Positions 18,574 through 44,758 of a stretch of 64,000 nt of DNA are shown here, one piece after another. The DNA comes from Methylophaga sp. (GTDB lineage: Bacteria > Pseudomonadota > Gammaproteobacteria > Nitrosococcales > Methylophagaceae): assembly GCA_011053005.1 (NCBI GenBank), contig DRHW01000034.1:62001-126000 (forward strand), in the 5' to 3' direction. Numbering within the stretch: the first letter of the stretch is position 1; the number at the start of each line of letters is the position of its first letter. The translations under genes and the position numbers were made by a program. Under the pieces are notes generated by a model, which was given only the letters and a program-made list of their open reading frames with translations, searched no databases and was not told where the DNA came from.

Positions 18574-20031
18574 ATGAAAAAAATTAATGCATTAATATTA
18601 TTGGGTTGTATTGCTTGGCCGTTGTCATCGGTGCAGGCGCTTGATATTGCTTTGCCGGAAATGGGCGATAGTGCAGGCGCATTGATTTCACCACAGCAAG
18701 AGCATGAGATTGGTCAATCGTTCTTCTGGCGGTTACAACAGTCGGTCGAGTTAATTGACGATCCTGAAGTGAATAGCTATTTGCAAGCATTAGGTTACCG
18801 TTTGGTGTCAAATAGTGATGCGCCTTATTTGAACTTTACGTTTTTCATGGTGCCAGATCCTACCGTTAATGCCTTTGCAGCTCCCGGTGGTTTTATCGGT
18901 ATCAATAGTGGTTTGATTTTAACTAGTCAGCGAGAAGATGAAGTGGCTTCGGTCATGGCGCATGAAATTGCTCATATCACTCAACGACATTTATTACGTA
19001 GCTTTGAACAGTCTAAACAAATGAGTGTGCCGATGACGGTGGCGATGATTGCCGCGGCATTATTGGGCGCAACAACTAATTCACAAATGGGAATGGGAGC
19101 TATTATGGCCGTGCAAGCTGGCGGCATTCAAGCACAAATAAACTTTACCCGTGCTAACGAAAGTGAAGCGGATAACTTAGGCATGTTAACGCTGGTTCGA
19201 GCAGGTTTTGATCCACAAGCTATGCCTACATTTTTTGAACGCTTGCAACAAACAAGTCGGTTTTATACCAGTAGCTCTGTACCTGAATTCTTGCGTACTC
19301 ATCCTGTGACCACTTCCCGTATCGCTGATGCACGAGGACGAGCGGCGAGCTATCCATCAAAACCACAACAGAGTGATAATTTACAGTTCTATTTGATTCG
19401 TGAAAAACTACGAGTGATGGCATCGAAAGATTTGAATCAATTGACTCAGTTTTATGTCGATGAAATGCAATCAGGAAGTAGTTTGAATGAGACGGCAACG
19501 CAATATGGTTATAGTTTGGCTTTAGCGGCTAAAGGTGATTACACACTGTCTCGCACGGTTTTACAAAAACTTATCGATCAAGACAAAGACAGATTAAGTT
19601 ATCAGCTCGCACTTGCTGATTTAGAAGTCGCTGTCGGTAGAATTCCGGCAGCATTAACGATTTATGAAGATAATCAAAAATTATATCCGGATGATCAGGC
19701 GCTGACGTTGAAGCAGGTCGATGTGTTATTGAAGGCTAATCAGCCAGCAAAAGCGGTGGCCTTGTTACAAACCCAATTTGAAATTGGCTCACCATCTCGT
19801 CCGCTTTATAAATTAATGTCGCAAGCAAAAGCGGCAATGGGTGAGAAAAGTCAGTCTCACAGTTGGTTAGCAGAGTATTATTATAATTCGGGTCGTTTAG
19901 AACAAGCCGCGGATCAACTACGTGTAGCGGCGGGTTTTGCAAAACACGATGAATATCAGCTTTCTAAAATAACTGCTCGGTTACGTGAGGTTGAAATGGC
20001 ATTAAAGCAGATGGATGATGAGTTGTCATGA
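18574..20031 (+). CDS. M48-family metalloprotease with TPR repeats (BepA-like)
   Basis: Signal peptide, HEIAH zinc motif (VMAHEIAHITQRH), ESEADNLG, C-terminal TPRs. Confidence 0.92.
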   Translation: MKKINALILLGCIAWPLSSVQALDIALPEMGDSAGALISPQQEHEIGQSFFWRLQQSVELIDDPEVNSYLQALGYRLVSNSDAPYLNFTFFMVPDPTVNAFAAPGGFIGINSGLILTSQREDEVASVMAHEIAHITQRHLLRSFEQSKQMSVPMTVAMIAAALLGATTNSQMGMGAIMAVQAGGIQAQINFTRANESEADNLGMLTLVRAGFDPQAMPTFFERLQQTSRFYTSSSVPEFLRTHPVTTSRIADARGRAASYPSKPQQSDNLQFYLIREKLRVMASKDLNQLTQFYVDEMQSGSSLNETATQYGYSLALAAKGDYTLSRTVLQKLIDQDKDRLSYQLALADLEVAVGRIPAALTIYEDNQKLYPDDQALTLKQVDVLLKANQPAKAVALLQTQFEIGSPSRPLYKLMSQAKAAMGEKSQSHSWLAEYYYNSGRLEQAADQLRVAAGFAKHDEYQLSKITARLREVEMALKQMDDELS

Positions 20032-20516
20032 CAGATAAACGCTTTGAACAACGAAGGACTGTTTTAAAAGGTGTGATCTCGGCATCGACGCTGGCTTTGG
20101 TCGCGACAAGTGGTTTGTTATTACCACAACGAGTGCTGGCTCACTGGCCAACGGATGCATTTAATTCAAAAACGGTTGAAGATGCATTACTCGCCTTACT
20201 TGGCCAAGCTGAAATTGCCGATGATGAGATGGTGAAATTTAAAGTAGGTAGTCCACCTAGTTATGCGGTTAACGGGGCATCGGTGCCGATTGAGGTTCAA
20301 AGTAGCTTAAAAGATATTCAACGTATTGCAATTTTAGTTGAGAAAAATCCTAATCCGCTCGCAATGAGTTTGGAGTTGTCGCCTTCTGTAAAACTACCTT
20401 TTAAAAGCATGATTAAAATCGCTGAAGACTCCTTGGTTATTGCCGTCATTAACGCGGGCGGTAAGTTATATAAAACGTCTCGGATGGTGGAAGTCGATAT
20501 TGGAGGATGTGCTTAA
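20028..20516 (+). CDS. soxY: Thiosulfate oxidation carrier protein SoxY
   Basis: Tat-like RRTVLKG leader; VDIGGCA C-terminal swinging-arm cysteine; adjacent soxZ. Confidence 0.9.
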   Translation: MTDKRFEQRRTVLKGVISASTLALVATSGLLLPQRVLAHWPTDAFNSKTVEDALLALLGQAEIADDEMVKFKVGSPPSYAVNGASVPIEVQSSLKDIQRIAILVEKNPNPLAMSLELSPSVKLPFKSMIKIAEDSLVIAVINAGGKLYKTSRMVEVDIGGCA

Positions 20517-20833
20517 TGGCATTAAAGGCAAAAGATCGAATTCGAGCGAAATTAAAAGAGGATGAAACAACCGTACGCTTATTGTTAGCTCATCCTATGC
20601 ACACCGGACGAGGTAAGAATGAAGTGGGCGAGTTAATTCCTGCTGAGTTTATTCAAGATATTCGTTGCTGGCGTAATGAAGATGAAGTACTGACGATAAA
20701 ATGTGGTACAGCAACGGCTAAAAATCCCTATTTTTCTTTTCAATTAGCTGGCGGTAAGCTGGGCGATAAAATTACAATTCGCTGGGTTGATAATATCGGT
20801 GCCAAAGGCTCAGCGGAAACTATTGTTGGATGA
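20516..20833 (+). CDS. soxZ: Thiosulfate oxidation carrier complex protein SoxZ
   Basis: LAHPMHTGRGKNEVGELIPAEFIQDI; ATG at 20516 overlaps the soxY stop. Confidence 0.92.
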   Translation: MALKAKDRIRAKLKEDETTVRLLLAHPMHTGRGKNEVGELIPAEFIQDIRCWRNEDEVLTIKCGTATAKNPYFSFQLAGGKLGDKITIRWVDNIGAKGSAETIVG

Positions 20834-22548
20834 GTCTTAAGGTAAAAGTTCATCTATTTTTTGCTGTATTGCTGCTCAGTTCAGTATTAGCAAGCACAGG
20901 CGTATTAGTTAGTAATGCTCGTCAGTCAGTAAAGCTTGAAATGGAAGACACGATGGCGGCAGCGGCTCGCCTAATCACGGTTTCATTGTCTGGCATATCA
21001 CTCAATAGAGAGCAAGGTGTATACGAGCATCTGCAAGATTTAGTCAAAGCATTGGGCGAAATTCGTAGCTTACATATCCTGTTATTTGATTCTAAAGGTT
21101 TGTTATTTGAGGGTGAGCCGCAAGAGGACATGGGTGCAAAACCACCTGAATGGTTTGTTAAGATATTGTTTCCAAAAGTAATCCCCTTAACCAAACAGTT
21201 TGGTACGGGTCATATGGTTATCTACGCTGCACCTTTGCAAGAAATTGGTGACCGCTGGCGAGATTTACGCGGCATTTTAGAGTTAGGTATTGGGATCTTT
21301 ATTTTTGTAGGTTTGTTTTTGTATTGGGGCGTTGGATGGTTACTCAGGCCTCTTGATCGTTTACTCGCTGCTCTGTCTGGTTTCGAGCGTGGTGATTTAC
21401 ATCTACGCTTGCCAAGTTTCTCTTTGGCAGAAATGAATCAAATCAGTCAAACCTTTAATCGAATGGGGCAAACACTCGAACTGAGTATTGAGGAAAACCG
21501 CCGTTTAGCTACATTGGTTAAACAAACGGGTGATGCTATTTTATCATTAGATCATGCTGGTAATATTACATTTTGCAATCCGGCTGCTGAGCGATTATTT
21601 CATCATCAAACGACGTTATTAGTCGGTGAAGCGTTAGCTAATTTAGGTTTCACTGAGCACCGTAGTCGTATTGCCGAGATTTTAGAAAACTGTGAAACAG
21701 TCGAAAATCTAGAAACAAGCTTGCCATTGCCGGATGGTCGTATTGGATCTATTTTATTTTCCACCGTCCCGCTATTAGATACGGATGAGACAGTGCGTGG
21801 CGTTATCTGCACGTTAAGAAATATTACTGAACACAAACAAGCCGAAGCGGCTGAAAGTCAGCTGCGTGAAACACGTTTATTGACACATCATATGGCGGAA
21901 GCGCAAGAAGAAGAACGCCGACATTTAGCACGAGAATTACATGATGAATTGGGGCAATGTCTGACGGCAATTAAAACAGATGCAGTATTAATTCGGAATC
22001 GTAGCGAAACCACAGAACCTAAAGTATATAGAAGCGCTCAAGCCATTATTGACGTGGCGAGCCATATTTATGATGTTGTTCATAATATGATCACACGACT
22101 GCGTCCTAGTCCATTAGACGATTTAGGTTTAATAGCGACCTTACAAGAATGTATTTCTGCTTGGCGAAAGCGACAGCCGAATATTAGTTTCAGCCTGAAT
22201 GTTTCCGGACAATTAGATCATTTGAATGAAATGATGAATATGACTGTATTCAGGGTTGTGCAAGAAGCTATTACTAATGCTGTTCGCCATGCTGATGCAA
22301 GTGAAATGATTATTGCTGTGAATAATCAATTTGATGATAAACTACAACAAAATCAGTTAATTATTGATATCTCTGATAATGGTAAAGGAATGGAGATTCA
22401 AGACTTTCATTCTGATGTTGATTTTGGTTTGCTAGGCATGCGAGAACGCGCGCATAGTTTAGGCGGAACATTCAAATTGGTCAGCAGCTTGGGAGCGGGG
22501 TTAAAAATCCATGTCGCTATTCCACTAGGAGCGGATAAAATCGTATGA
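20830..22548 (+). CDS. Membrane sensor histidine kinase (HAMP-PAS-HisKA_3-HATPase, NarX/DegS type)
   Basis: Two TMs, HAMP, PAS, EEERRHLARELHDELGQCLTAIK, HATPase DNGKGM/GLLGMRERA; ATGA overlap with soxZ. Confidence 0.93.
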   Translation: MSLKVKVHLFFAVLLLSSVLASTGVLVSNARQSVKLEMEDTMAAAARLITVSLSGISLNREQGVYEHLQDLVKALGEIRSLHILLFDSKGLLFEGEPQEDMGAKPPEWFVKILFPKVIPLTKQFGTGHMVIYAAPLQEIGDRWRDLRGILELGIGIFIFVGLFLYWGVGWLLRPLDRLLAALSGFERGDLHLRLPSFSLAEMNQISQTFNRMGQTLELSIEENRRLATLVKQTGDAILSLDHAGNITFCNPAAERLFHHQTTLLVGEALANLGFTEHRSRIAEILENCETVENLETSLPLPDGRIGSILFSTVPLLDTDETVRGVICTLRNITEHKQAEAAESQLRETRLLTHHMAEAQEEERRHLARELHDELGQCLTAIKTDAVLIRNRSETTEPKVYRSAQAIIDVASHIYDVVHNMITRLRPSPLDDLGLIATLQECISAWRKRQPNISFSLNVSGQLDHLNEMMNMTVFRVVQEAITNAVRHADASEMIIAVNNQFDDKLQQNQLIIDISDNGKGMEIQDFHSDVDFGLLGMRERAHSLGGTFKLVSSLGAGLKIHVAIPLGADKIV

Positions 22549-23189
22549 GTAACAATAAAACAACCGTATTGCTAGTCGATGATCATGAATTAGTACGTGC
22601 AGGGTTTAGGCGTTTATTAGAAGATGGCGATAAGCTTGTTGTGATAGCTGAAGCGGGAAGTGGCGAGCAAGCCGTGCAAGATTACATTAAATATCATCCT
22701 GATGTGGTAGTGATGGATATTTCGATGCCGGGGATTGGTGGTATCGGCGCGATTGAACGTATTATTGCACGTAGCCCTGAAGCACGAATTTTGGTGTTGA
22801 GTGTGCATGAAGATAGCGTATTTACCTCGCGAGCTTTGCAAGCCGGCGCCAAAGGATTTATTCCAAAACGCAGTGCACCGGAAGAAATGATTAAAGCCGT
22901 GGAGCAAGTTGCACAAGGTAAAATCTTTATTAATCCTGATATTGCACAAACGATTGCTTTGCAAAAAGTATCGGGATCAGAAAGTATTATTGATACCTTG
23001 AGTCAACGTGAATTCGAAGTTTTTAGCTTATTAGCAGAAGGTAAAACGGTCAATGATATTGCTGATATTTTGAACTTAAGCCCAAAAACTGTCGGTACTC
23101 ATCACACAACGATTAAACAAAAGTTAAATGTATCTAATTCTGCTGAACTTGCACGATTAGCTATTAGAAGTGGATTATTGGAACCTTAA
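22545..23189 (+). CDS. LuxR/NarL-family response regulator
   Basis: REC (VLLVDDHELVRAGFRRLLED) plus LuxR HTH (LSQREFEVFSLLAEGKTVNDIADILNLSPKTVGTHHTTIKQKL). Confidence 0.95.
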   Translation: MSNNKTTVLLVDDHELVRAGFRRLLEDGDKLVVIAEAGSGEQAVQDYIKYHPDVVVMDISMPGIGGIGAIERIIARSPEARILVLSVHEDSVFTSRALQAGAKGFIPKRSAPEEMIKAVEQVAQGKIFINPDIAQTIALQKVSGSESIIDTLSQREFEVFSLLAEGKTVNDIADILNLSPKTVGTHHTTIKQKLNVSNSAELARLAIRSGLLEP

Positions 23190-23199
23190 ACACTCACTC

Positions 23200-23262
23200 A
23201 GGAAAATCCTCAGTAACATCAAGCCTTTTCCTCTAACCCCATAACATTCATCCGAGTATAGT
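23200..23262 (+). promoter_or_regulatory. Putative activator-dependent promoter of the first pqqA copy
   Basis: aggaaaatcctcagta-N12-ttcct-N24-TATAGT; same arrangement precedes the second copy. Confidence 0.55.
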
Positions 23263-23326
23263 TAGCTCCAAGGTCACGAAAAATAGTTTTCCTGACAATT
23301 TCTAACTAAATAACGAGGTGTTTATC

Positions 23327-23398
23327 ATGTGGACTAAACCAGAATATTCAGACATGCGTTTCGGATTTGAAGTAACAATGTATATTTGCAATCGTTAA
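23327..23398 (+). CDS. pqqA: PQQ precursor peptide PqqA, copy 1 (23 aa; absent from ORF track)
   Basis: [23 protein letters not shown]; invariant E and Y of PqqA (FEVTMY). Confidence 0.96.
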
Positions 23399-23419
23399 TT
23401 CGAATCGTAAAAAATATAA

Positions 23420-23455
23420 AGCCCCGATATCGGAAGATATCGGGGCTTTTTTTTT
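23420..23455 (+). terminator. Strong intrinsic terminator after pqqA copy 1
   Basis: gccccgatatc ggaa gatatcggggc + 9 T. Confidence 0.92.
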
Positions 23456-23481
23456 GCCTTTGAAACTTGCGATAGCAAATA

Positions 23482-23544
23482 AGGATAATCCTTAGTATTG
23501 CAACGGGTATTCCTGACGAAACAATGATAAGTGAAGTGTACTAT
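23482..23544 (+). promoter_or_regulatory. Putative activator-dependent promoter of the second pqqA copy
   Basis: aggataatccttagta-N12-ttcct-N24-TACTAT, same spacing as 23200-23262. Confidence 0.55.
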
Positions 23545-23609
23545 TACAGTTGCTGATGCGAGCTATTTCGCACAGTATTTTATAACTAACTAAAAAAGAG
23601 AGCTTTATT

Positions 23610-23681
23610 ATGTGGACTAAACCAGAATACTCAGACATGCGTTTCGGCTTTGAAGTAACAATGTACATCTGCAACCGTTAA
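23610..23681 (+). CDS. pqqA: PQQ precursor peptide PqqA, copy 2 (23 aa; absent from ORF track)
   Basis: [23 protein letters not shown], amino-acid identical to copy 1; directly upstream of pqqB. Confidence 0.97.
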
Positions 23682-23700
23682 TATCGGTTTTTGATGTATG

Positions 23701-23726
23701 CTTGGGGCCCTTCAGAGGGCCTCAAG
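23701..23726 (+). promoter_or_regulatory. Hairpin without T tract between pqqA copy 2 and pqqB (attenuator/processing candidate)
   Basis: cttggggccct tcag agggcctcaag, 11-bp stem with one G-U. Confidence 0.6.
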
Positions 23727-23803
23727 TATCTTAAATCACTAAATCAAATAGTTCTCTGTAACAGATTTATTCGATTTAGTTGTCAGTCAACGGAATAAAT
23801 ATA

Positions 23804-24718
23804 ATGCAAGTACATGTATTGGGTTCAGGCGCTGGTGGTGGTTTTCCTCAATGGAACTGCAACTGCGTAAATTGTAAAGGTGTTCGCGAAGGTACTATTA
23901 AGGCTACTAAACGTACCCAGTCTTCAATCGCCATTAGTGCCAATGGTACGGATTGGATCTTATTTAATGCTTCCCCTGATATTAAGAAACAGCTCGATGA
24001 TTTTCCTGCCTTACAACCCGGTCGTGCAGTAAGAGATACCGCGATTAGTGCGATTGTGATTACCGATGCTCAAATTGATCATGTAACAGGCATGTTGACC
24101 TTACGTGAACATATTGCACCATGGGAAGTGTATACAACAGAAGCGGTTCGCCAAGATCTAACGACGGGTTTTCCTGTCTTTAACATTCTGGGACATTTCC
24201 GTGGCATTAATCATCATGAAATTGCCACAGATCAAACGCCTTTTACTATTCCAAGTGCCGAAGGTTTAGAATTTACAGCAGTCCCTTTATTAAGTGAGGC
24301 GCCACCTTATTCACCACACCGAGGTAATACTGTGCCGGGTGATAATATTGGCATGCACATTAAAGATACTCGAACAGGTAAAAGCTTGTTTTATGCACCG
24401 GGTTTGGGCGTTGCCGAACCTCATGTATTGGAATATATGCGAAATTCAGATTGTATCTTAGTCGATGGTACGGTTTGGACCGATGATGAAATGGCGAATG
24501 AAGGGATCAGTAATAAGCGCGCCAGTGAAATGGGTCATCTCGATCAGTCAAGCGCTGGTGGGATTATGAGCATACTGAATGCGATGGAAAAACCACGTAA
24601 AATTCTTATTCACATTAATAATACTAATCCAATTTTGAATGAAGAATCACCACAACGCCAAACCTTGAATAATTCAAATATTGAACTTGCCTTTGATGGT
24701 ATGGATATTGAACTATAA
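23804..24718 (+). CDS. pqqB: Pyrroloquinoline quinone biosynthesis protein PqqB
   Basis: [28 protein letters not shown]. Confidence 0.98.
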
Positions 24719-24754
24719 GCGGCGTTAAAAAAATAGCAAAATAGAGGAATGACA

Positions 24755-25477
24755 ATGTCAGACAAAGCACCTTGGTCACGCGAAGAATTTGAACAAGTAT
24801 TACGCGCAAAAGAAGAGTTTTATCATATTCGCCACCCTTTGCATGTCAAAATGCATTCAGGTGAAATGGATAAACAACAAATTCAAGGTTGGGTGGCAAA
24901 CCGTTTTTATTATCAAACAACCATACCGATGAAAGATGCTGCGATCATGGCGAATTGCCCCATTCGTGAAGTGCGTCAGCATTGGGTTCAACGTATTCTT
25001 GATCATGATGGGTTTGAAAATGAAGAAGGCGGTATCGAGGCATGGCTACAACTAGGTGAGTCTGTGGGCTTAACACGTGAAGAATTATGGTCAGAAGAAC
25101 ATGTTTTACCGGGTGTTCGTTTCGCGGTCGATGCCTATAGTAACTTTGCACGTAGAGCGACATGGCAAGAGGGGGCGAGTTCTTCATTAACCGAAATGTT
25201 TGCACCTAAGATTCATCAAGCACGTTTAGATAACTGGCCAGAGTTATATCCATGGATTGATGAAAAAGGTTATCGTTATTTTCGTAAACGGTTAAGTGAA
25301 GCGCGACGTGATGTTGAGCACGGTGTTCAAATTACACTCGACCATTTTAAGACACGTGAACAACAAGAGCATGCAGTCAGTTTACTGCAGTTTAAATTGG
25401 ATGTACTTTGGTCAATGTGCGATGCCATGTGGATGGCGTATATTGAAAAACGGCCACCCTACACCTTTGAGGTTTAA
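24755..25477 (+). CDS. pqqC: Pyrroloquinoline-quinone synthase PqqC
   Basis: [44 protein letters not shown]. Confidence 0.98.
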
Positions 25478-25480
25478 CAA

Positions 25481-25765
25481 ATGAGTGATCCGGTTTTTAC
25501 CGCGAGCAGTATCCCCGTCTTAGCGCTTGGTTATCGCTTTCAATGGGAGCCTGCACAAAACTGTAATGTGCTGTTATACCCTGAAGGCATGGTTAAGCTA
25601 AATGGTGCCGCAGGCGAAATATTAAAACGAATTAGTGAGAATAAACAAACTGTAGCTGAACTTATCGCTGAACTAAAAGCAGCCTTTGATGGTGCTGATT
25701 TAGATGATGATGTTTACCGGTTTTTAGAAGAGGCACACGATAATGACTGGATCAGACCAGAATAA
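25481..25765 (+). CDS. pqqD: PQQ biosynthesis peptide chaperone PqqD
   Basis: [22 protein letters not shown]; position between pqqC and pqqE. Confidence 0.97.
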
Positions 25766-26933
25766 AGCAGCCGGAAGTACCGGCGGTACATTAGGACTCA
25801 GTTCCCATAATGACATTCGCCAACCCTTATGGTTGTTAGCGGAGTTAACTTATGCATGCCCATTACAATGTCCTTATTGCTCAAATCCAATGGATTACGC
25901 TAACTTTAAGAAAGAGCTAACCACAGAAGAATGGCTTGATGTTTTCCGTCAAGCGCGAGCGATGGGGGCGACACAATTAGGACTTTCTGGTGGTGAACCT
26001 TTAACACGTCCTGACTTAGTTGAGTTGATTACTGAAGCCAGAAAAATGGGCTTTTATACTAACTTGATCACCTCCGGTGTCGGTATGGATGCCGCTAAAG
26101 TGGCTGAATTTAAAGAAGCAGGTTTAGATCATATACAAGTTAGTTTTCAAGCGAGCTCCGAAGATTTAAATGATTTGATTGCAGGAACTGATGCGTTTAA
26201 ACATAAAATTGAAATGGCAAAAGCGGTCAAAGCGAATGGCTATCCGATGGTGTTATGTTTTGTAACCCATCGCCAAAATATCGACCAAATGGAAGATATT
26301 CTTGAATTAGCAATTTCACTTGAAGCCGATTATGTTGAATTAGCCACGACGCAGTATTACGGTTGGGCTATGCATAATCGTGATCAATTATTGCCAATGA
26401 AAGAACAATTAGTTAAAGCTGAAGCCATTGCTCATCGTTACCAAGAAGAACAAAAAGGTAAGATGAAAATTTACTACGTGGTACCAGATTATTATGAAGA
26501 ACGTCCTAAAGCCTGCATGAATGGTTGGGGAAATGTCTTTTTAACGATTACGCCAGATGGTGTTGCATTACCTTGTCATGCCGCGCGTGAACTACCAGGG
26601 ATGGATTTACCGAATATAAGAGATGTTTCGGTCAAAGAAATCTGGGAAGAATCGAACGATTTTAATCGTTTCCGTGGTTACGAATGGATGAAAGAACCTT
26701 GTCGTTCTTGTGATGAAAAAGAGAAAGACTTTGGCGGCTGTCGTTGTCAGGCTTATATGTTGACTGGCGATCCAGCCAGTGCCGATCCTGTTTGCAGCAA
26801 GTCTTTTGATCATCATTTAATCGAAGACGCATTAAAACGTGGTCGATTAGAAGCTGAAAAGACAGTAACGGAAGCGAAACCTTTAGTTTTCCGGAACCCG
26901 AAAAATTCCAAAAAACTGTCTGCGAGTGAATAG
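25743..26933 (+). CDS. pqqE: PqqA peptide cyclase, radical SAM PqqE
   Basis: [11 protein letters not shown] radical SAM CxxxCxxC, SPASM cysteines [19 protein letters not shown]. Confidence 0.98.
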
Positions 26934-27858
26934 CGATTCTGCGATATCGACACGTGGTCTGACTAAGCAATATGGTCAGACCACGGTGGTTAATAACCTC
27001 GATCTAGATATTCAAGCTGGCCAGTTTTATGGGCTACTTGGCCCTAATGGTGCTGGAAAAAGCACGACGATTCATATGTTAACAACGATGACTGCCGCCA
27101 CATCAGGTGAAGCGTGGATTGCAGGGCAGAAAATAGCGGCTGATCCAGTCGCCATTAGGCGTACTGTTGGTTTGGTGTTTCAAGATTCCGCGCTTGATCG
27201 TACGATGTCGATTGATGAAAATCTGCAATTTGCCGCGGCAATGTATAACTTATCCCCCCATGATGCGAATAAACGAATTGATGAATTATTGGCAGTGTTT
27301 GGCTTGCAAGACAAACGTAAACGCAAATTACTGACCTTATCGGGTGGCCAACGTCGAGCAGTCGATATTGCACGCGGCGTATTACATAAACCAAAAGTAT
27401 TATTTCTTGATGAACCCACTATTGGTTTAGATTTGCCTAATCGTCGTGCTATTTGGCGTTTTGTTGAACAATTACGCCGCGAAGAAGGCATGACTGTATT
27501 TCTAACAACGCACTATTTAGAAGAAGCCGCGGCCTGTGATCATGTCGATTTTATTCAGCAAGGTCAATTACAGCTGGGCGGTTCACCAACAGCATTAACA
27601 CAACAATTAGCGACCTATATTTTAGAAATCAGCACACCGAATCCAGAACAAATTTCCAGCCAATTAAGTCCGTTATTTGGTCAACCGATTCGCGAAGACG
27701 AAGATTTAAGTTTTAAAATAGCCGCGAATGATGTCGATTTTTATGCATTACAACAATCACTTGGCGATGCTGTGTCAGCGATGCAATGGCGAAAACCTAA
27801 TCTGAATGATGTTTATTTATGGACATTTTGCAGCCCACAACAAGGCAATGTAATATGA
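26926..27858 (+). CDS. ABC transporter ATP-binding protein (drug/PQQ-cluster associated)
   Basis: Walker [10 protein letters not shown], signature [14 protein letters not shown], Walker B VLFLDEPT; 8-nt overlap with pqqE. Confidence 0.93.
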
Positions 27859-28640
27859 GTTGGCGTCCTGTGAAAGCGGTGGTTGGCCGTGAAATGAGTA
27901 AATTATTTCGCCAACGCGCTCGTTTAATTAGTGCGATGGTTAGACCAATGATCTGGTTATTGGTTATTGGTTCGGGTGTTGGCAGCATGTTGCAAGGTCC
28001 TGAACAAGATGGTTATCTCAGCTTTTTAGTGCCCGGCATTTTAGCGATGACCTTATTGTTCGCCGCTTTATTATCTGCATTGACCTTAGTTTACGATAAA
28101 GAATTTGGTGTGATGCGAATGATGATGATCGCACCAATTGCTCATTATTGGATCGTATTATCGAAACTGATTGCTGCAACCTTAACGGCGATGGTGCAAG
28201 CCTGTTTATTGTTAGTTTTGTTATTAGTATTAGGTTTAGTCAGTTTTAAAATTGCGCTTAGTTTATTGCTGCCCGCTGTTTTAACGGCAATATGTTGTGC
28301 GGCAATTGGTGGATTGATTGCGGTTTATTCTAAAAGCATTGATAACTTCGCCGTCATTATGAATTTCTTCATTTTTCCGGTATTTTTTCTAAGCGGTGCT
28401 TTATATCCGGTGAGTCAATTACCGACTTATCTGCATTACATCGTATTGATAAACCCATTCAGTTATGGTGTTGATTTACTCAAACATGCCGTACCTAATG
28501 TGCCGACTGACTTTTCAGTGATGACAGATATTGCTATTTTACTTGGATTTTCAGCTGTTGCCATAGCTATTGCTTGCTGGCAATTTTCTCGTGAATCAGT
28601 ACATGAACCTTTGTTTCATCGTGCGACCAAAGGTAATTAG
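27855..28640 (+). CDS. ABC-2 type transporter permease
   Basis: Six hydrophobic segments; FFIFPVFFLSGALYPVSQLP; ATGA overlap with the ATPase. Confidence 0.92.
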   Translation: MSWRPVKAVVGREMSKLFRQRARLISAMVRPMIWLLVIGSGVGSMLQGPEQDGYLSFLVPGILAMTLLFAALLSALTLVYDKEFGVMRMMMIAPIAHYWIVLSKLIAATLTAMVQACLLLVLLLVLGLVSFKIALSLLLPAVLTAICCAAIGGLIAVYSKSIDNFAVIMNFFIFPVFFLSGALYPVSQLPTYLHYIVLINPFSYGVDLLKHAVPNVPTDFSVMTDIAILLGFSAVAIAIACWQFSRESVHEPLFHRATKGN

Positions 28641-42791: not shown

Positions 42792-44129
42792 ATGAGTTTA
42801 AAATTCCGCATCGTGGTCATCGTGACCATCATATTGTTGATTAACTTCGCTGCTGCGGGCTACTTCATGGTGCATAACGCTCGACAAGCATTGGTCGCTG
42901 AAATGGAGTCTAGTACCAATTTAGCGAAGGGTTTATTAATTAATGCTTTGCCGACCTTACGTTTTTCTAACGACTTGGGTGAACGATTGACGATGATTGT
43001 CGATAGTGTGCGAGATACACGCCACATTCGCGCTTGGTTTGAAGATATGAGCGGCGAACCATTGATTGGTCATGAAAAGAACTCTCGCTTTATCAATACT
43101 CCCGATGCCCCGAACTGGTTTATTAAAATGATGGAGCCAGAAGCGGTTGCGTTTCGCCGCCTGATTACCAAAGGCAGTAAATCTTACGGTTATTTAGTGG
43201 TTGAGGCTGATCCGAGTGATGAAGTTAATGAGGTTTGGGCTGACGTAAAAGTATTATTTTGGCTGGGAAGCTTCTTCCTAATGCTGATCGTTGGTCTTAT
43301 ATATATTGCACTTCGTCAGGGCTTAAGACCTTTAGAGTTGCTTGAAGATGCCTTGGGACAACTTGAAAAAGGCGATTTTTCTGCCCGTGTTGATACCTCA
43401 GTTGTTAAAGAATTGTCGTCTATTCAATTCCGTTTTAACCATATGGCGAGCGTTTTAGAGCACACAATGGCAGAAAATCATGCTTTAGCTGGAAGCATGT
43501 TATCGCTTCAAGAAGAAGAACGCCGAGACTTATCGCGTGAATTACATGATGAATTAGGTCCATGTTTATTTGGCATAAGAGTCGATTTAGGCAATATCGA
43601 ACGCGTAGCCGCTGAAAATAAACTGCCTGAAATAGAAGAGAAAGTGGAATCCGTTAAGGTTATTACTAACCACATACAATCCTTGGTAAGAAAGATGTTA
43701 AGCCGTTTGCGCCCGTTAACCTTGGATGATTTAGGTTTGGTCGATGCCATACGTGACATGCTACATAATTGGCGAGATAGACAGCCTGAGATTGACTGGG
43801 AATGGGATTTTGTCGGTGAATTTCATACCTTGCCTGATACCTTGCAAGTGACCCTTTACCGAATTGTACAAGAATGTACCACCAACTCGGTGCGGCATGC
43901 ACATGCGAGCCATGTAAAAGTAGAGGCGCGACGTGAGCATGAATCGGTCAAAGTTACGGTAACAGATGATGGTGTTGGTTTTCAGGCGGACTTAGTACGT
44001 GGTTTTGGTTTAATTGGTATGCGTGAACGAGTCAGTGCATTGGGTGGGCGAATCGCATTTGATACTGCAGAAGGGCGCGGCTTACAAGTTAGGGTCTTAA
44101 TCCCCTTAAAAGGAAATGATAAAACATGA
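42792..44129 (+). CDS. Membrane sensor histidine kinase (HAMP-HisKA_3-HATPase)
   Basis: TM MSLKFRIVVIVTIILLINFAAAGYFMV, QEEERRDLSRELHDELGPCLFGIR, GLIGMRERVSALGG; start may be 42747; ORF-track start at 42675 would run into hemL. Confidence 0.92.
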   Translation: MSLKFRIVVIVTIILLINFAAAGYFMVHNARQALVAEMESSTNLAKGLLINALPTLRFSNDLGERLTMIVDSVRDTRHIRAWFEDMSGEPLIGHEKNSRFINTPDAPNWFIKMMEPEAVAFRRLITKGSKSYGYLVVEADPSDEVNEVWADVKVLFWLGSFFLMLIVGLIYIALRQGLRPLELLEDALGQLEKGDFSARVDTSVVKELSSIQFRFNHMASVLEHTMAENHALAGSMLSLQEEERRDLSRELHDELGPCLFGIRVDLGNIERVAAENKLPEIEEKVESVKVITNHIQSLVRKMLSRLRPLTLDDLGLVDAIRDMLHNWRDRQPEIDWEWDFVGEFHTLPDTLQVTLYRIVQECTTNSVRHAHASHVKVEARREHESVKVTVTDDGVGFQADLVRGFGLIGMRERVSALGGRIAFDTAEGRGLQVRVLIPLKGNDKT

Positions 44130-44758
44130 ATGTGATCACAATTTTAGTGGTGGATGACCATCCCATAGTCAGAGCGGGCTGTCGTCAACTTATTCAGCAA
44201 ATTCCAAATACCAAAGTGATTGAAGCAGAGACGGGTGAAGAAGGTTATCGGCTTTTTCAAGAAAATTATCCTGATATGGTCTTATTAGATATTACCTTAC
44301 CGGGTATAGGTGGACTTGAAGTATTACGCAAAATGCGCGCTAATCGTGAAAATGCCAAGGTATTGATGTTCAGTATGCATGAAGATCCTGTCTTTGCCTC
44401 ACGTGCGATGCAAGCGGGTGCGAAGGGTTATATTACTAAAAATAACGCGGCGGATTATTTGGTTGAAGCCGTTGAAAAAGTATTAACGGGTAAAACATAT
44501 CTGAGTCCAGATACCGCTCAACAATTAGCGATGTTAAACATCGGTGCAGGCACCAGTGCTCTGAGTGATTTGTCGCGCCGAGAATTAGAAATTTTACGAT
44601 TATTGGGCGAAGGTAAAAGTATGACCGAAATATCCGACTTATTAGGCATTAGTTATAAAACGGTCGCAAATAATCTGACTCAAATTAAAAGTAAGCTCGA
44701 TATTAATAAAACAGCAGAGCTAATGCGGTTTGCCATTAGCCATGGATTATCCTCGTAA
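44126..44758 (+). CDS. LuxR/NarL-family response regulator
   Basis: ILVVDDHPIVRAGCRQLIQQ; LSRRELEILRLLGEGKSMTEISDLLGISYKTVANNLTQIKSKL. Confidence 0.95.
   Translation: MNVITILVVDDHPIVRAGCRQLIQQIPNTKVIEAETGEEGYRLFQENYPDMVLLDITLPGIGGLEVLRKMRANRENAKVLMFSMHEDPVFASRAMQAGAKGYITKNNAADYLVEAVEKVLTGKTYLSPDTAQQLAMLNIGAGTSALSDLSRRELEILRLLGEGKSMTEISDLLGISYKTVANNLTQIKSKLDINKTAELMRFAISHGLSS

Follow-up and report, generated by a model that had tools for sequence, protein, structure and literature searches.

The two tandem pqqA genes of this Methylophaga sp., which lie within a 64,000-nucleotide stretch of DNA (hereafter the window), are best explained, with a probability of roughly 70%, as members of a family of self-contained supply units that would be activated together by an adjacently encoded regulator and would raise the amount of PqqA precursor. 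The genome holds three such units, two in tandem before pqqBCDE and one after a glutathione reductase gene. In every unit a common two-site operator lies upstream of a -10-like box and a short leader, and the ORF, which specifies an identical PqqA, is followed by a terminator or hairpin of its own. Each PQQ formed uses up one PqqA, whereas PqqB to PqqE act as catalysts; extra units would therefore raise precursor and leave the enzymes unchanged. The suggestion in the preliminary description that extra copies raise dosage fits the multiplication of pqqA beside a single pqqC, and the benefit itself is what we infer, as are DNA binding, activation and expression levels. The copies, the conserved units, the operator specificity, the regulator linkage and the codon constraint are read from the sequence.

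By ORF translation, we identified pqqA copy 1 at 23327-23398 and copy 2 at 23610-23681, both on the + strand and encoding an identical 23-aa PqqA, which matches NCBIfam TIGR02107 (E 1e-13, 50.7 bits against a cut-off of 20) and Pfam PF08042 (44.3 against a cut-off of 21.1). Over their 72 nt the ORFs share 93% identity, and they differ at codons 7 (TAT/TAC), 13 (GGA/GGC), 19 (TAT/TAC), 20 (ATT/ATC) and 22 (AAT/AAC) alone, all at synonymous third positions. We thus confirmed the coordinates, translations and all five silent codon differences of the tandem pair as first described; both genes are real, but that account was incomplete, as it missed a third copy and the dispersed family of units with a common operator. 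The third pqqA, with an identical product, is found on a separate contig of this assembly (G000:C32:101243-101311), downstream of a gene that reads as a glutathione reductase, a name given from the sequence and not from a profile search. All pqqA copies listed retain the E-x3-Y spacing (E15-V-T-M-Y19) of the Glu/Tyr motif for the PqqE cross-link (PMC12423496), and with pqqB to pqqE adjoining, the window PqqA is a predicted substrate for cross-linking by PqqE with PqqD.

Downstream of the pair we identified, all on the + strand, a single pqqB (23804..24718, TIGR02108), pqqC (24749..25477, TIGR02111), pqqD (25481..25765, a 94-aa ORF between pqqC and pqqE assigned by position and size, no profile search) and pqqE (25743..26933, TIGR02109). 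With three pqqA and one pqqC, the window genome combines multi-copy pqqA with single enzyme genes. Directly after pqqE lie genes for an ABC transporter ATPase and permease (26926-28640, +), which resemble ABC families associated with PQQ and alcohol dehydrogenases, with scores below the cut-offs of those families.

Copies at unrelated loci, compared in pairs, are homologous between about -125 and about +135 relative to the start codon, a span running from operator to terminator. This defines a pqqA unit of ~260 bp, in which a two-site operator and a -10-like box are followed by a short leader, the ORF and a terminator or hairpin. The first operator site is a near-palindromic AGGAAAATCCT element; the second, a TCCT site, follows at 22 bp, with the -10-like box about 24 bp after that, and both spacings are nearly constant in an alignment of 49 sites. 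For copy 1, the predicted operator/promoter region spans 23198..23265 (+; E 8.7e-12 with the operator model R1, and the 49-site alignment), with TCCT half sites at 23207 and, 22 bp on, at 23229, and a -10-like TATAGT at 23257-23262, read from the DNA. For copy 2, the predicted region spans 23480..23548 (+; R1 match E 5.8e-11) and has a variant second site and a -10-like TACTAT at 23539-23544.

The two window units also differ at their 3' ends. Copy 1 is followed by an intrinsic terminator with a 14-bp stem and a T run (23418..23455, +; fold -24.6 kcal/mol, z -6.0), and a hairpin without a T run lies between copy 2 and pqqB (23698..23729, +; fold of 23682-23760, z -5.7), with comparable hairpins downstream of the pqqB-proximal copies of relatives. 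Lacking the T run, the latter probably lets part of transcription into pqqBCDE. No known RNA or riboswitch, the c-di-GMP riboswitch included, exceeded its Rfam gathering score at pqqA in the window and 40 genus loci; permissive Rfam matches near pqqA genes proved to be terminator look-alikes. The copy 1 operator, considered as a folded RNA, was no better than shuffled sequences (z -0.73). A plain sigma-70 scan at copy 1 found no promoter-like site, which fits an activator-dependent copy 1 promoter but proves nothing.

We investigated the distribution of the operator with a sequence-only model of 72 positions (R1), for which 49 sites of the genus served as training set. Scoring covered the best 150 candidates in each genome, which may leave weak sites elsewhere undetected, and matches with E <= 1e-3 were taken as significant. 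Overall, there were 120 significant matches in 50 genomes, 119 of them directly 5' of pqqA and one at a contig end. Within the genus (29 genomes), 60 of 61 matches immediately precede a pqqA or PqqA-like gene, and the remaining one runs into a contig edge; most of the 61 are the 49 training sites, so that the informative results are the lack of matches elsewhere, the untrained divergent PqqA' genes and the other genera. In 21 family genomes from three other genera, all 59 matches precede pqqA (54 at listed pqqA genes and five on reading the DNA). Conversely, 67 of 75 pqqA or PqqA-like genes in the genus have the operator, and the remaining eight are mostly at contig ends or decayed. The window genome has three matches in all, corresponding to its three pqqA copies, and we found no match there indicating a wider regulon with its five PQQ alcohol dehydrogenases. 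When pqq operons of other families were examined for the operator or linked regulator, the Methylophagaceae-type pqqA alone was clearly positive among 80 loci fetched by PqqB.

We additionally observed the same operator upstream of divergent PqqA' peptides (e.g. MKNWIDPEYCDVRLGFEVTAYVHTR), at loci L206/L222 (G009:C12), L204 (G006:C23), L205 (G008:C14), L207 (G012:C29) and L208 (G019:C76). In G009 it stands at the head of pqqD', pqqE' and additional genes, a layout that matches pqqADE-puuD-serC-pyrD (PMC12423496).

Immediately 5' of the pqqA pair lie genes for a sensor histidine kinase (20830..22548, +; HAMP, PAS, HisKA_3 and HATPase_c by Pfam) and a NarL/LuxR-type response regulator (22545..23189, +; Response_reg and GerE by Pfam), the candidate regulator of the pqqA units. 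A LapD/MoxY-type periplasmic domain of the kinase is weak (LapD_MoxY_N, 19.7 against a cut-off of 25 bits). Orthologues of the regulator (>=78% identity, the next paralogues in the genus reaching 52% at most) adjoin pqqA in each of the 18 genus genomes where they occur, even in assemblies with pqqBCDE on another contig, and none of nine genus genomes without pqqA has an orthologue. Two pqqA-bearing genus assemblies (82% and 69% completeness) show no orthologue at this level, and one of these has a contig that begins shortly before pqqA and still includes the end of the regulator gene. Beyond the genus, the regulator is present in 20 of 21 pqqA-bearing genomes searched and adjoins pqqA in 14 of the 20. 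One genome, G050 (99% complete), has operators and no orthologue, and another, G033, has the regulator and no operator match; the regulator-pqqA link is strong, not universal.

The adjacent two-component pair is therefore a likely, rather than certain, regulator of the pqqA operator. It is less probable, if still credible, that another regulator binds the operator and that the linkage reflects operon history only, as the operators retained in G050 and the several paralogous NarL-type regulators per genome might suggest; against this stand the adjacency in 18/18 genus genomes, including those with pqqBCDE on a separate contig, and the joint absence of orthologue and pqqA. Paralogous NarL-type regulators of the window genome (46-47% identical, on G000:C3, C37 and C4) lie near three of its five PQQ alcohol dehydrogenase genes, and a second NarL-type response regulator in the window (44129-44749, +) is 44% identical to the pqqA-adjacent one. 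Directly 5' of the sensor kinase are SoxY-like and SoxZ genes (20028-20833, +), SoxZ scoring above its cut-off and SoxY just below.

In the reading favoured here, the adjacent kinase and response regulator would most probably bind the operator, thereby activating the copies jointly; copy 1 would yield a short precursor-only transcript, and copy 2 would head the enzyme operon, with the intervening hairpin probably reducing read-through. The copies might instead be specialised by condition and have no dosage role, with the regulator-adjacent and dispersed copies answering one signal and the pqqB-proximal copy, through its variant operator, another. The pqqB-proximal copies do differ in their downstream hairpin and in the second site, where they have a variant in common (GGGTATTCCTGACG). 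Of the five pqqA copies in a strain used for PQQ production, two account for most of the expression, and hardly any comes from the pqqADE operon (PMC9851590). However, the first site, the spacing and the -10 position are common to both types, one model finds both, and the encoded peptide is identical, and we consider such specialisation unlikely.

We investigated pqqA copy number across 57 Methylophagaceae genomes, the closest named relatives in a PqqB search being mainly Methylophaga and other Methylophagaceae assemblies. Forty-seven of these genomes contain pqqA, in 2-9 copies and never fewer than two; the single-copy relatives that would have contradicted the preliminary description were thus looked for and are absent. 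In nearly all genomes pqqC is single, and those without pqqA mostly lack pqqC too. The exceptions are three assemblies of 55-83% completeness with pqqA and no pqqC, G007 (5% contamination) with two pqqC, and G021, which has a stop-interrupted pqqC and no pqqA. Since the family keeps 2-9 pqqA and nearly always one enzyme set, multi-copy pqqA is an old, maintained supply of raw material and no accident. At class level, pqqA occurs in 53 of 370 sampled genomes, and by our count 24 of the 53 have two or more copies; together with cases in the literature, this indicates that multi-copy pqqA is common.

Copies recur after the response regulator, before pqqB and after glutathione reductase, with extras elsewhere. 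Decayed copies were also identified, namely a diverged, apparently frameshifted remnant after glutathione reductase (L133, G002:C2:1671-1724) and a copy with an internal TAG (L210, G027:C86:5886-5948), indicating that pqqA copies are gained and lost. These remnants are in keeping with neutral paralogues, spread by duplication and kept alike by gene conversion and slow decay with no benefit of copy number, as is the slightly closer likeness of copy 1 and copy 2 ORFs within a genome (2.57 differences) than between genomes (3.68). Yet the pqqB-proximal copies resemble their orthologues (2.19) as closely as they do copies of the same genome, operator and terminator are retained with the ORF at unrelated loci, and copy number never drops to one, making a neutral origin very improbable.

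Finally, for the age of the pair, the tandem spacing of 260-292 bp recurs throughout the genus, and tandem pairs also occur beyond it, excluding a recent duplication or assembly error. The 93% identity of the ORFs is all that points to an artefact or a very recent event, which we dismiss given the five silent differences, the differing flanking DNA of the copies and the similar tandem pairs in independent assemblies of many species. At codons for conserved residues, the synonymous difference between genomes is 18% for pqqA, compared with 47% for pqqB and 49% for the regulator. Over 62 pqqA copies, codons 12, 19 and 22 are predominantly TTC, TAC and AAC, which neighbouring genes use about 20-22% of the time, a pattern that suggests codon selection for strong expression. 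Window copy 1 carries the rarer codon at sites 13, 19, 20 and 22, but its TAT at codon 7 is the more frequent one. Because silent sites in pqqA are constrained, the five silent differences cannot date the duplication and understate its age. Of the earlier reading of the silent changes, purifying selection on both copies and an old duplication hold (47/47 genomes multi-copy, recurring spacing), but the silent count is no fair clock (18% against 47-49%).

More broadly, and only tentatively, Methylophagaceae may have a substrate-supply regulon, in which one two-component system acts on a pqqA-only operator, and operator and gene were copied jointly into unrelated sites in units of ~260 bp; the number of units and one signal would then set precursor output apart from the maturation enzymes. 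PqqA supply matters for PQQ production, and pqqA is a plain example of gene dosage where the encoded peptide is itself consumed as substrate. With its operator, the system provides one candidate regulator, one motif and a natural variation in copy number from 2 to 9, and illustrates that genes short enough to escape gene callers easily can make up a regulon, which a common control element brings to light.

Several known systems resemble this arrangement in part. The c-di-GMP riboswitch flanking a pqqA in M. nitratireducenticrescens (PMC12530212) is likewise a regulatory element beside pqqA in the same family, but none was found in the window or the 40 genus loci scanned. In Pseudomonas, AgmR/PedR1 (ErbR) is a LuxR-type activator of PQQ-dependent alcohol oxidation and pqq genes (PMC12997753); by description it resembles the candidate here, as a LuxR-type response regulator with proposed control of PQQ-biosynthesis genes, whereas Pseudomonas pqq loci are without the Methylophagaceae operator and linked regulator. 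A second cluster, pqqADE-puuD-serC-pyrD, is reported in Hyphomicrobium denitrificans and Methylophaga nitratireducenticrescens (PMC12423496); this layout also occurs in relatives of the window genome, where the divergent PqqA' carries the operator of ordinary pqqA units. The methanol-fed PQQ production strain, whose five pqqA copies are very unequally expressed, similarly has an operon copy and separate copies, but it has a pqqADE operon (PMC9851590), and none was found in the window genome. Methylobacterium aquaticum 22A has pqqA1A2BCDE and so, like the window, a duplicated pqqA ahead of pqqBCDE; it differs in being an Alphaproteobacterium, and the portion of that report considered here does not describe dispersed pqqA copies (PMC4392154). 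Methylophilaceae have 3-12 pqqA copies and, in all but one case, a single set of other pqq genes, as in the window genome; they represent another class or order of methylotrophs, and the account, as far as it was available, mentions no common operator or linked regulator (PMC4109929). Thus, multi-copy pqqA was already known in other methylotrophs, and the common operator confined to pqqA, with its linked regulator, appears to be new.
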